From Gelria sp. Kuro-4 (GTDB taxonomy: Bacteria > Bacillota > DTU030 > DUMP01), in the NCBI RefSeq assembly GCF_019668485.1, contig NZ_AP024619.1:1177001-1241000 (forward strand): a stretch of 64,000 nt of DNA. The letters run 5' to 3'. Under the pieces are notes generated by a model, which was not told the origin of the DNA, did not search any database, and saw nothing but the letters and a program-made list of their open reading frames with translations. Below are positions 16,098 to 25,019 of the stretch, one piece after another (the stretch's first letter is position 1; each line of letters begins with the position of its first letter). The position numbers were made by a program, and so were the translations under genes.

Positions 16098-16793
16098 ATG
16101 ACAGGAAAGATTCGTGTCCTTATTGCCGATGATGAGGCGCTCTTACGCGACGGACTGCAGACAATTCTCAATCTGGAAGAGGACATGGAAGTGGTGGGCT
16201 TGGCTGCTGACGGCCGCGAAGCGTACGAACGGGCACAAGAGCTGCAGCCGGACGTCGTACTGCTGGACATCCGTATGCCCGGAATGGACGGGGTGGAAAG
16301 CCTGCGGCTTATCAAGCGCGCCCTGCCGCGGACCAAAGCGGTTATGCTCACGACATTCAATGATGAAGATTACATCGTCAGCGCCTTGGCCGCCGGAGCG
16401 GACGGCTACCTATTGAAAGACCTGGAGGGGCAGCAACTGATCGACGCCATACGCAGAGCGTCCCGTGACCAGCTCATGTTGCCGGCCAAGGTGGCGGGCA
16501 AACTGGCAGAACGGCTGGCTGTGCTACAGGCCATCGACGACACGAAGAAGAAGATGAAGAAGCTGGGCACGGATATAATCGATCTCACCCCCCGTGAACG
16601 GGAGATCGCCGCCTTGATGGTGCAGGGCTTGACCAACCGCGAGATAGCCGACCACTTGAGCTTGAGCGAGGGAACGGTCAAGAACTACATCAGCGTGATT
16701 TACTCTAAACTGGGAACCAGTGACCGCACTCGGGCCGTTTCCTATCTGGCTTCTTATCTGGCCAAGCACTTCGAATCACCGGAGTGTCCTTGA
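16098..16793 (+). CDS. NarL/LuxR-family response regulator
   Basis: 231 residues. The receiver domain has the acidic pair 'IADDEAL', phospho-acceptor Asp in 'VVLLDIRMPGMDG', Thr in 'VMLTTFNDED' and Lys in 'LLKDLEG'. The C-terminal LuxR HTH is 'LTPREREIAALMVQGLTNRE' with 'SEGTVKNYISVIYSKL'. Start ATG 16098 after GAGGAAG. It lies 32 bases before the giant kinase gene, whose C-terminus is a HisKA_3-type kinase, the class that pairs with NarL regulators. Confidence 0.92.
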   Translation: MTGKIRVLIADDEALLRDGLQTILNLEEDMEVVGLAADGREAYERAQELQPDVVLLDIRMPGMDGVESLRLIKRALPRTKAVMLTTFNDEDYIVSALAAGADGYLLKDLEGQQLIDAIRRASRDQLMLPAKVAGKLAERLAVLQAIDDTKKKMKKLGTDIIDLTPREREIAALMVQGLTNREIADHLSLSEGTVKNYISVIYSKLGTSDRTRAVSYLASYLAKHFESPECP

Positions 16794-21974: not shown

Positions 21975-22020
21975 AAGTCATGTGACCGAAGTAACTGGTC
22001 ATATGACTTTATTTTTATTA
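21975..22020 (+). terminator. Rho-independent terminator of the kinase gene
   Basis: AAGTCATGTGACC and GGTCATATGACTT pair (one G-U) around GAAGTAACT and are followed by a T-rich tail. Confidence 0.85.
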
Positions 22021-22394
22021 TGCTGGTGACGTAGTGAGACGAGAAGATCACCCCCGTTGCCGCACGCTTGGACGGTTAGGCACCAAACTGCAGAACTACG
22101 GTATCCAAAGAGGGCCTCAGTGAAGGACAAACCCAGCTTTTATTTCCGACCGATCGGCAGAAAAAGAGCCGTCTAAACCTGCTAATTAGCACCACTATTG
22201 TGATAACACGGCAAATACTCGATACAGAGGCTAGGATCCGCCGCCTGAATGCGGGCGTTTGTGGCAGCGGGGAGCCAGTGGCGCAACCGGCTGCTGGACA
22301 AGCAGCTTTTGATTTTTCACGTCAAGGAGGCGAGACACATACCGGCGGTTGAGGAGAACCATCATGCTGCGGAAGAATCTTGGCTGGAGCGGGG
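22021..22394. other. Leader region before the actin-like gene
   Basis: About 370 bases separate the kinase terminator from the actin-like gene. Apart from the doubtful small frame at 22249 no gene is seen and no consensus promoter is obvious. Confidence 0.5.
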
Positions 22395-22398
22395 ATGA
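22249..22398 (+). CDS. Possible small ORF coupled to the actin-like gene
   Basis: A 49-codon frame from ATG 22249 ends at a TGA that overlaps the ATG of the next gene (ATGA). The peptide is helical and charged (NRLLDKQLLIFHVKEARH, HHAAEESWLERG). No strong ribosome binding site precedes it, and a hairpin (GCTGCT / AGCAGC then TTTTGATTTTT, 22290-22317) lies within it, so the stretch may instead be a leader with a weak terminator. Confidence 0.25.
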   Translation: MRAFVAAGSQWRNRLLDKQLLIFHVKEARHIPAVEENHHAAEESWLERG

Positions 22399-23447
22399 GC
22401 AAAAGTAAAACAGCGAGGAAAGAGGTGTTTGTTTCCGTGCAGTGCGTCGTGGGTTTGGACATCGGCTATGGGTTCGTAAAGGTAACGGACGGGGAGTACG
22501 GGTACGCTTTTCCCAGCGTTGTCGGCAACGGCCACACCAAGACCATATATCGGACCTCGCTTCAGGTGGAACGCATTAACGATCTAAGGGTGGTGATCGA
22601 TAACCAATTGTATTTTGTAGGTAAAGCCGCCTTGCGGCATTCCCGGTTTGCCATCCGAGACTTGTCCGACATGCGCACCCAGAACGAAGACCTCAAGGTG
22701 CTGTTCTTGAGCGCCTTGAGCTTCTTCTGCCAGGACAAACAGAACCGGTTTAAAGTGGTCACAGGTATGCCGCCGGGCCGCATGTACCTGGCGGACGACC
22801 TGATAAACAGGTTCGCGCGCGAGTATACGGTTTCGCTTTACCGTAACCGGGCTTATCAAGAGACGACGATCCGTGTTGACGACCTGGATGTTGTGCCCCA
22901 ACCGGTGGGAACTTACTGGGCTCAGACCTTAGACCTGCAGGGCCGGGAGAAGCGTACCTTTGAGGGTCGGGTGGGGATTATTGACATCGGATTCCGGACC
23001 ACGGATTTGGCCGCCATCGAGGACGGGGAGTTTATTCCGAGCAACAGCTATACCATTCCGGTCGGCATATCCGCCACCTACACTGACATCGGTGAGCAAA
23101 TCATAAGTAATTACGGGTTGGACCGCGAGAGCTTCGCCCTGGACGAAAGCGTGATCAAGGGAATGATTACTGTATCCGGGCGGCCGATAGACATTACCGC
23201 TATCCGTAACGAAGCGTTTCAGCAACTGGCAAACAAACTGCTCATTGAAGTCACCTCTAAATGGAGGGTGCTCGACTTCGATCGCCTGCTGCTGAGCGGT
23301 GGGGGTGGTCAGGCTCTGAGCACCTACCTACTAAGCCATCTGCCGCAGGCCGAATTGGTGCCTAACCCCTCCACGGCCAACAGTCGCGGCTACCTATCCT
23401 GGGCCAATCGGCTATGGGGTGATTTTAATTCGGAGGGCGTCCAGTAG
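22395..23447 (+). CDS. ParM/StbA-like actin homologue
   Basis: 350 residues from ATG 22395. Actin-type nucleotide-binding motifs: phosphate 1 'VVGLDIGYGFVKVTDGE', phosphate 2 'GIIDIGFRTTDLAAIEDGEF' and adenosine motif 'LLLSGGGGQALSTYL'. 'VVTGMPPGRM' matches the ParM-like (Alp) group. Such proteins form dynamic filaments for plasmid segregation or other positioning tasks. Here the gene is chromosomal-looking, with no ParR or centromere repeats visible, and is followed by a bactofilin and an M23 peptidase, which points to cell-envelope or shape work rather than DNA partition. Confidence 0.85.
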   Translation: MSKSKTARKEVFVSVQCVVGLDIGYGFVKVTDGEYGYAFPSVVGNGHTKTIYRTSLQVERINDLRVVIDNQLYFVGKAALRHSRFAIRDLSDMRTQNEDLKVLFLSALSFFCQDKQNRFKVVTGMPPGRMYLADDLINRFAREYTVSLYRNRAYQETTIRVDDLDVVPQPVGTYWAQTLDLQGREKRTFEGRVGIIDIGFRTTDLAAIEDGEFIPSNSYTIPVGISATYTDIGEQIISNYGLDRESFALDESVIKGMITVSGRPIDITAIRNEAFQQLANKLLIEVTSKWRVLDFDRLLLSGGGGQALSTYLLSHLPQAELVPNPSTANSRGYLSWANRLWGDFNSEGVQ

Positions 23448-23506
23448 GGCAATGCCGGCTAACTTGGTACGAGGAAGCATCGACGGCAGGGAGGTGCGGG
23501 TAGGAC

Positions 23507-24019
23507 GTGCTGGGGCTTCGGACAAACAGACCGAAGATCAGGGAACCTGAAATGGTTGTGCCAGAGACGGTTGTAGAGGTTTACGGCAGAACGGAAGGGT
23601 CCATAACTGGAGCCGATAAGGTCATTGTGGCGCCCACGGGCTGCTGTAAGAGCAATGTTAAAGCAGCTTATCTTGATATTGCCGGGGAAGTGTACGGCGA
23701 TGTCGATGTTGAAGAGCTGGTAATCCGGCGGGAGGGCCGCTTGTACGGCCAAGTAAGGTACAAAAAGTTGATCTTGGCCGAGGGCGCGGTCTTTCGCCCC
23801 AATGACGGCGGGGATGGAACAGAAACCTCTTCAAGACCGGCAGAAAAAGTGGTTGGTCCGCGCTTGGTCTCTCAGGAGGCACAGGCACGGACAGTGCCTT
23901 TGAGGCGAGACACTTCCGCCGGACAGCTGTGCGCAGCATCCGAAGAGAACAAAAAAACGTACCGGGCTGAGGCTCTGGAAAAAGAACAGCAGGAACCTTG
24001 TTTCATCACCAGCTTTTAG
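23507..24019 (+). CDS. Bactofilin (polymer-forming cytoskeletal protein)
   Basis: 170 residues from GTG 23507; ATG 23551 is an alternative start. The core beta-helix (about residues 25-95) shows the stepped pattern 'VEVYGRTEGSITGADKVIV', 'NVKAAYLDIAGEVYGDVDVE' and 'EGRLYGQVRYKKLILAEGA'. The C-terminal ~70 residues are charged and low-complexity. Bactofilins polymerise without nucleotide and recruit peptidoglycan enzymes; a LytM/M23 gene directly downstream fits the widely conserved bactofilin-M23 pairing. Confidence 0.85.
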   Translation: MLGLRTNRPKIREPEMVVPETVVEVYGRTEGSITGADKVIVAPTGCCKSNVKAAYLDIAGEVYGDVDVEELVIRREGRLYGQVRYKKLILAEGAVFRPNDGGDGTETSSRPAEKVVGPRLVSQEAQARTVPLRRDTSAGQLCAASEENKKTYRAEALEKEQQEPCFITSF

Positions 24020-24140
24020 CCGACGACTGGGACGGAGCCGATTGCGCGGCCGTCCCTGCGCTCGCGGAGTATCGGCTGCGTTGCGGTTTACAGTATGGAG
24101 GTAGGGCCGACTGCATGCAGGTAGAACTTGGTTACGCTTT

Positions 24141-25019
24141 TTGTGCCGCTTTTTTCGTCCGGCCGCCGTCACCGTGTTGCTGGTCCCACACTGGGAAAAA
24201 GGTACGCGCCGTTGGCGGGTGCCTCTGAGCCTGGAGCAAATGGCCATGGTTGCCGTCGCTTGCCTGGCCGCCGTCCTGTGGCTCGGCTACGATTACGCGA
24301 ACCTTCGGAAAACCGTGCAGGAGGTTGTGCAGCTGCGGGCCGCCAATGCCCGGCAGGCCCGACAAATACGAGCGCTGTCGCAACAAGCCGCCGACCTGGA
24401 TAAGGAACTGGCAGCGGTAGCTGAGGTAGAGGCGAAACTGCGTCAGGAGACGCGTCTTTTAAGCCCCGAAGCAGGGAAGAAGCAGGAATCGCCCGGCGGG
24501 CTGCCGAATCGAACTCTCTCAGTCGAAGTCTTATCCCGGTCGCTAAAGATGCAATCAGAACGGGCAGGCGTGCTTAGACGAAGTTTAACCGGTTTAGTGG
24601 ATGATGTTGAACGGTATCAGAAGAAAATGGCGCACCGGCCGAACATGTGGCCTGTAAACGGCCGCATCACTTCTTCGTTCGGCAGCCGTCGTTCGCCCTT
24701 CGGTGGGGGATATGAGGTCCATGAAGGAATCGATATTGCGGCTCCTTACGGTTCGCCGGTGCGTGCCACGGCCGACGGGCGTGTAGTATTTGCCGGGTGG
24801 CGCAGTGGCTACGGACGGCTGGTGATTCTCGATCACGGGTACGGTTATCGAACGGCTTACGGGCATAACAGCCGGATCCAGGTTCGAGTCGGGCAGGAGG
24901 TCAAAGGAAACAGCGTCATTGCGTATGTCGGAAGTACCGGCCGGAGTACCGGCCCGCACGTTCATTACGAGGTCTGGTTCCAGGGGAAAAAGGTGAATCC
25001 TGTGCCGTACCTTCCGTGA
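24141..25019 (+). CDS. Membrane-anchored M23 (LytM) peptidase
   Basis: About 292 residues from a probable TTG at 24141, though the exact start is uncertain. One N-terminal membrane segment (AMVAVACLAAVLWLGY, about residues 34-50), then coiled coil (residues ~55-110 and ~125-160), then an M23 domain with zinc ligands 'HEGIDIAAPYGSPV' (H-x3-D) and 'HVHYEVW' (H-x-H), plus 'YRTAYGHNS'. The combination resembles the envelope endopeptidases partnered with bactofilins. It is predicted to cut peptide cross-links in the wall at sites set by the cytoskeletal genes upstream. A palindromic element follows 12 bases after the stop. Confidence 0.88.
   Translation: MCRFFRPAAVTVLLVPHWEKGTRRWRVPLSLEQMAMVAVACLAAVLWLGYDYANLRKTVQEVVQLRAANARQARQIRALSQQAADLDKELAAVAEVEAKLRQETRLLSPEAGKKQESPGGLPNRTLSVEVLSRSLKMQSERAGVLRRSLTGLVDDVERYQKKMAHRPNMWPVNGRITSSFGSRRSPFGGGYEVHEGIDIAAPYGSPVRATADGRVVFAGWRSGYGRLVILDHGYGYRTAYGHNSRIQVRVGQEVKGNSVIAYVGSTGRSTGPHVHYEVWFQGKKVNPVPYLP

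Follow-up and report, generated by a model that had tools for sequence, protein, structure and literature searches.

A ParM-class actin gene followed by a tagged bactofilin gene: an apparently undescribed two-gene cytoskeletal module

Introduction

What does an actin of the plasmid-segregation class do on a chromosome when the gene behind it encodes a bactofilin? Bactofilins polymerise at the membrane. On plasmid R1, the actin ParM is bound by the C-terminal peptide of its adaptor ParR. Chromosomal ParM-ParR pairs are known in Bacillota (PMC12270681), and in filamentous cyanobacteria the FcmB/FcmC system includes a ParM-derived actin that serves cell shape (PMC12645912). On the bactofilin side, LmdC-type peptidases bind their bactofilin through a cytoplasmic N-terminus (PMC10945521), and the bactofilin BacP binds PadC with its C-terminal tail (PMC12448750). 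In the window (the whole 64,000-nucleotide stretch of Gelria sp. Kuro-4 DNA analysed here), an initial annotation recognised genes for an actin-like protein, a bactofilin and an M23 peptidase. It proposed a three-part machine for envelope remodelling, possibly coupled to a signal by a giant kinase immediately upstream. Here we examine which of these genes belong together and how they may be controlled.

Results

Layout of the locus

The actin, bactofilin and M23 genes are consecutive on the + strand (Table 1), at the place that had been claimed for them and with Pfam matches to suit; the upstream regulator is indeed of NarL type and the kinase has the 1710 residues ascribed to it. The kinase is, however, not immediately upstream of the actin gene: 436 bases lie between the two, and these contain a terminator and a c-di-GMP-II riboswitch. 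The start of the M23 gene is uncertain, as the ATG at 24115 behind the best SD sequence, GGAGGT (~24098), is out of frame; the in-frame options are CTG at 24111 or TTG at 24141 (region window:24098-24141).

Table 1. Features of the locus, in window positions
Feature	Position	Strand	Evidence
NarL-type response regulator	16098..16793	+	Pfam Response_reg + GerE
Sensor histidine kinase, 1710 residues	16826..21958	+	Pfam domains
Intrinsic terminator behind the kinase gene	21975..22009	+	14-pair stem, U-run; 16 bases past the kinase stop
c-di-GMP-II riboswitch aptamer, actin-gene leader	22217..22300	+	Rfam RF01786
Terminator-like hairpin + U-run, overlapping the aptamer 3' end	22289..22317	+	Pattern scan
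ParM-class actin, 350 aa	22395..23447	+	Pfam ALP_N E 3.9e-28, MreB-like_C E 1.3e-16
Tailed bactofilin, 170 aa	23507..24019	+	PF04519, 59.8 bits vs gathering cut-off 27.9; probable start codon GTG, from SD-like GGAGGTG
Bactofilin C-terminal tag EPCFITSF	23993..24016	+	Tail motif
Membrane-anchored M23 (LytM) peptidase	24141..25019	+	PF01551 E 1.8e-37

A ParM-class actin

In a PDB profile search the top match of the window actin was pCBH ParM (E 6.6e-30), and the nearest solved sequences were those of pCBH ParM, Dh-cParM1, pSK41 ParM and CorM. Foldseek with one family member also ranked pCBH ParM first (E ~1e-21, TM 0.73 by target length), and the ParM-ParR peptide structure 4a62 appeared among its matches. 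An AlphaFold2 model of the window actin alone had a mean pLDDT of 69.7. The protein nevertheless stands well apart from the curated families, scoring 85 bits against the NCBIfam plasmid ParM model (cut-off 417) and 22.7 bits against the FcmB model (cut-off 300). MreB offers the likeness of a bacterial actin able to organise the cell wall, but the window actin is of the ALP_N type and not an MreB: the Pfam search gave it no match to PF06723 (MreB_Mbl). Separate MreB genes were present in 12 of 12 genomes, two of them elsewhere in the source genome. The ATP-binding motifs GLDxGYGFVK, DIGFRTTD and GGGG are invariant or nearly so across the actin family.

We found no plasmid and no phage member of this family; the best-ranked plasmid and phage matches share 29% and 28% identity, respectively. 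A plasmid or phage origin was rejected on this ground, there being no close member and no best match above 29%. Sister groups of ParM-class chromosomal actins, at ~35% identity or less, occur without a bactofilin (L025-L030, L077-L086), and some of these groups are conserved within one family. The actin of genome G399 is split across two frames (L134:8012-9105), through either a sequencing error or a real break.

The actin and the bactofilin form the conserved core

A profile built from six close actins was searched over 398 genomes of the host phylum. The scores fell into two groups with a clear gap: 14 matches reached at least 443 bits, and the remainder lay at ~300 or less. Relatives of genome G341 and two named genome contigs supplied further family members. 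The resulting 20 family actins are split from all others in a maximum-likelihood tree by a branch with 100/100 support. A bactofilin gene lies directly downstream of the actin gene in all 20 family loci (19 genomes), compared with 0 of 19 outgroup actins with a bactofilin nearby. Conserved adjacency of these two genes, whose lack the initial annotation would have taken as a refutation, was kept throughout. Chance cannot account for it, because every locus is paired although the source genome (2.88 Mb) holds just three bactofilin genes in total. The source genome also encodes a second actin, 64% identical to the window actin and likewise followed by a bactofilin. This second pair (L021:8627-10193, C1:1051627-1053193), whose bactofilin is also tailed, sits directly upstream of rpoB and rpoC, with neither an M23 gene nor a kinase gene adjoining. 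The contrast of 20/20 among family loci with 0/19 among outgroup actins indicates that the core module consists of two genes.

The paired bactofilins carry a C-terminal tag

Compared with 30 canonical and three second bactofilins, the actin-linked bactofilins form a separate subfamily (split support 99/93). The linker between their core and their C-terminus is highly variable in length and sequence, yet 19 of the 20 end in the tag F-x-[STIC]-[SV]-[FY]-COOH, which none of 34 other bactofilins carries, canonical ones from the same genomes included. All 19 tailed proteins end in an aromatic residue and carry F at position -5, and their mean pairwise identity is 45% over the last eight residues but only 11% over the preceding 30. 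Fisher's test on the tag counts gives 1e-13, a value that merely illustrates the contrast, since the sequences are related and the tail counts are not phylogenetically independent. The pattern itself was drawn up after the tails had been viewed and so describes them without being a blind test; four members found later matched the aromatic-F frame noted earlier. The single exception (L076) lacks the tag, but its C-terminus would be different if the frame shifted behind a run of C, so that the tag may possibly have been lost there through a frameshift. One further bactofilin (L130, 5963-6376; genome G022) groups with the actin-linked subfamily on a long branch and has no tail; the actin profile found no match in G022 at E 0.001. 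This protein represents a natural control: an untailed member of the subfamily in a genome without such an actin.

Of all neighbours, the actin alone is shared by every tailed-bactofilin locus and is therefore the best candidate partner of the tail. Judged from these sequence patterns, the tag would dock on the actin, with the bactofilin standing in for ParR. We modelled the actin and bactofilin of L096 with AlphaFold2 as one chain, reading the intergenic stop codon as Gly and using 25 alignment rows. Both cores were predicted well, but the tail was disordered (pLDDT ~30) and did not dock. Structure prediction of the complex, a check put forward in the initial annotation, thus returned no docking, although a single-chain model built from few sequences, and lacking a filament interface, makes for a weak test.

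No segregation partner accompanies the actin

Surveys of short ORFs and profile searches over the 20 loci found no ParR gene adjoining the actin gene and no conserved small gene for a DNA-binding protein. No parC iteron array was found in six upstream regions, which held just two-copy repeats of the kind expected by chance. The earlier description of an actin without ParR or centromere repeats thus held up, the position of ParR being taken by the bactofilin in 20 of 20 loci. With no ParR, parC or plasmid relative, a role other than segregation, as originally suggested, is also the better reading. The module shares with ParMRC systems and the chromosomal cParMs (pCBH ParM, Dh-cParM1) its actin class, with the best sequence and fold matches, and the two-gene order of actin then adaptor; it differs in that ParR, parC and plasmid relatives are absent and a bactofilin occupies the adaptor position.

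The M23 peptidase is an optional neighbour

An M23 gene follows the bactofilin gene in six of the 20 loci (the window, L023 and L068-L071), spread over five families. A giant kinase gene precedes the actin gene in seven, namely these six and L024. Both counts are lower bounds, since some contigs are short (e.g. L075). Given adjacency in just six loci, the M23 peptidase was rejected as a constant component of the module, and a three-part machine as the conserved unit is not supported. Where present, at the window locus and in five relatives, the peptidase adjoining the bactofilin is bitopic. Its short cytoplasmic N-terminus, transmembrane helix and coiled coil, the last two read off the sequence, precede an M23 domain, which in the window protein has HxxxD and HxH. 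The conserved N-terminal stretch of the window protein, TVLLVPHWEKGTRRWRVP, resembles that of the M23 in the canonical bactofilin pair and those of relatives. The BacA-LmdC module has the same build, a bitopic M23 protein that has a short N-terminus in the cytoplasm, a transmembrane helix and a coiled coil and adjoins a bactofilin (PMC10945521). It differs in that the window bactofilin belongs to the separate tailed subfamily, with an actin ahead of it and an optional M23. By this likeness, the N-terminus of the window peptidase would bind the bactofilin. A short canonical-type bactofilin comes next after the M23 gene in three loci (L023, L069, L070), and the source genome also has a canonical bactofilin-M23 pair (L022:7744-9201).

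The giant kinase is separate from the operon

The kinase has the domain order degenerate Ser/Thr kinase, AAA_16, GAF, HisKA_3 and HATPase. The first of these domains is probably a pseudokinase, to judge from LGRLGPDV / LGNLNPDI where HRDxKPEN is expected and from a DFG motif that is not conserved. The NarL-type regulator is probably the partner of the kinase. While the window kinase is of the HisKA_3/NarL type, those at the other loci are HisKA-REC-Hpt hybrids beside an OmpR-type regulator. Near-full-length relatives of the kinase occur without the actin (L150-L154), and L155, to which the window kinase is most closely related, is from a genome that also lacks it; the kinase tree requires three label changes between kinases with and without an actin. 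In view of the actin-less relatives and the label changes, the kinase was rejected as an obligatory part of the module. Direct coupling of the module to a signal through this kinase, as first proposed, is also not borne out: the kinase is present at only seven of 20 loci, has relatives without the actin, and is separated from the actin gene by a terminator and the latter's own c-di-GMP-II riboswitch. The giant NarL-class sensor kinases at L153 and L154 lie beside type IV pilus/secretion-like genes, without an actin, and the kinase gene of G120 is broken by a TGA (L068:11477-17407), by sequencing error or in reality.

A c-di-GMP-II riboswitch precedes the actin gene

The leader of the actin gene matches RF01786 over its full length (1-84) with 56.8 bits against a gathering score of 53.5 (E 1.4e-10). 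It resembles known c-di-GMP-II riboswitches in this score and in its conserved core, which is intact; the outer P1 is weak, and several pairs are flagged as non-standard. A pattern scan found a hairpin of seven pairs (stem 22289-22307) that overlaps the aptamer and is followed by TTTGATTTTT; this hairpin is the probable expression platform. Because aptamer and hairpin share bases, ligand binding should favour read-through, a direction deduced from the overlap and with the outer P1 weak. Binding of c-di-GMP would thus probably block the terminator and switch the operon on in the source genome. A sigma-70 promoter scan at the locus gave no site. Since a terminator cuts the kinase off from the operon and the riboswitch lies ahead of the actin gene, the likeliest signal at the window locus is c-di-GMP. 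None of the other 19 family loci has this riboswitch at the gathering score, and c-di-GMP control is therefore not general.

The source genome has just one further c-di-GMP-II riboswitch (L178:1604-1687, C1:1116603-1116686; 73.8 bits). It lies upstream of a gene whose 275-aa product resembles a BTAD-type transcriptional regulator, and G005 (L179) has a similar arrangement of riboswitch and regulator-like gene. In G258, such a riboswitch (L182:686-769) stands before pilB/pilT-like genes, and an actin-bactofilin pair is found elsewhere in that genome. We found no open paper naming both a c-di-GMP-II riboswitch and a bactofilin.

Discussion

The computations establish the fold class of the actin, its adjacency to a bactofilin in 20/20 loci, the single clade, the conservation of the tail, the riboswitch match, and the absence of ParR and parC. 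The module is apparently a widespread and undescribed two-gene cytoskeleton of a ParM-class actin and a tagged bactofilin, and we infer for it a role in envelope remodelling. The best explanation overall, which we hold with slightly better than even confidence, is that of a ParM-class actin whose ParR has been replaced by a bactofilin bound through its tail, with the peptidase placed where present and a c-di-GMP switch at this locus. An actin of this class would have been recruited to the chromosome, its DNA-binding adaptor being swapped for a bactofilin. Polymerised at the membrane, the bactofilin core would expose numerous flexible tails with F-x-S-S-[FY]-COOH at their ends, an array along the polymer analogous to ParR peptides. 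These tails would bind the end or side of the actin filament as ParR C-termini do on ParM. The cargo of the ATP-driven filaments would then be the bactofilin scaffold and not a plasmid, and they would position it, orient it or cluster it. Where the locus encodes an LmdC-type M23, the scaffold would grip the peptidase by its cytoplasmic N-terminus and so place peptidoglycan cleavage. The bactofilin would thus link the actin to the membrane and, where present, to the hydrolase. In the source genome, c-di-GMP on the riboswitch would block the terminator and turn the operon on. As a composite cytoskeleton, in which bactofilin polymers replace ParR, the C-terminal peptide does the coupling, the actin moves or orients a membrane scaffold (with M23 where present), and c-di-GMP switches it on in this lineage, the proposal is tentative and falls somewhat short of an even chance.

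Most loci lack an M23 gene, and for this reason the main rival is intracellular positioning: the actin would move or anchor the bactofilin scaffold for the chromosome, the poles or other cargo, as with Myxococcus bactofilins, PadC and ParABS, and the peptidase would be incidental. The 14 of 20 loci without an M23 next door fit this idea, as do the location of the second pair of the source genome upstream of rpoB-rpoC and the recorded binding of a bactofilin C-terminal tail to PadC (PMC12448750). It is nonetheless unlikely: six loci from five families share the M23 neighbour, three of them with a canonical-type bactofilin behind it, and no DNA-binding partner is conserved alongside. A lower likelihood again attaches to mere co-expression, in which actin and bactofilin would be physically separate, share a growth phase, and leave the tail to some other purpose, such as binding another client. 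The undocked tail of the AlphaFold2 read-through chain agrees with it, but the actin clade is accompanied by a bactofilin subfamily of its own, and neither the other bactofilins in these genomes nor the lone subfamily member without an actin has the tag. Chromosomal DNA segregation of ParMRC type, with ParR and parC gone unrecognised, would suit the ParM class of the actin and the chromosomal ParM-ParR pairs of Bacillota (PMC12270681). We consider it very improbable, given that a bactofilin holds the post-actin position in 20/20 loci, that an upstream iteron array and plasmid or phage members are absent, and that the sister actins have no bactofilin.

For the preferred reading of a ParM-class actin coupled to a bactofilin, the closest precedents are FcmB/FcmC and the LmdC-bactofilin module. 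FcmB/FcmC likewise comprises a chromosomal ParM-derived actin with a dedicated membrane-localising partner, serving morphology and not plasmid segregation (PMC12645912). It differs from the present module in the actin (22.7 of 300 bits), in the partner, here a bactofilin, and in phylum. Judged from names and organisms only, FcmB/FcmC is probably the same as CorM/CorR (PDB 9rmi), on which we found no open papers. A search of a library of open papers found no actin-bactofilin operon. To our knowledge, this is the first module joining an actin to a bactofilin.

The actin-bactofilin module is found in many families of the host phylum. If our reading is true, it would be a further case in which plasmid-segregation actins are put to use beyond DNA segregation, here through an adaptor of a new kind. 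Bactofilins have no nucleotide cycle, and the actin would then be a possible dynamic driver for them. In this lineage, the assembly of the cytoskeleton would moreover be tied to c-di-GMP.
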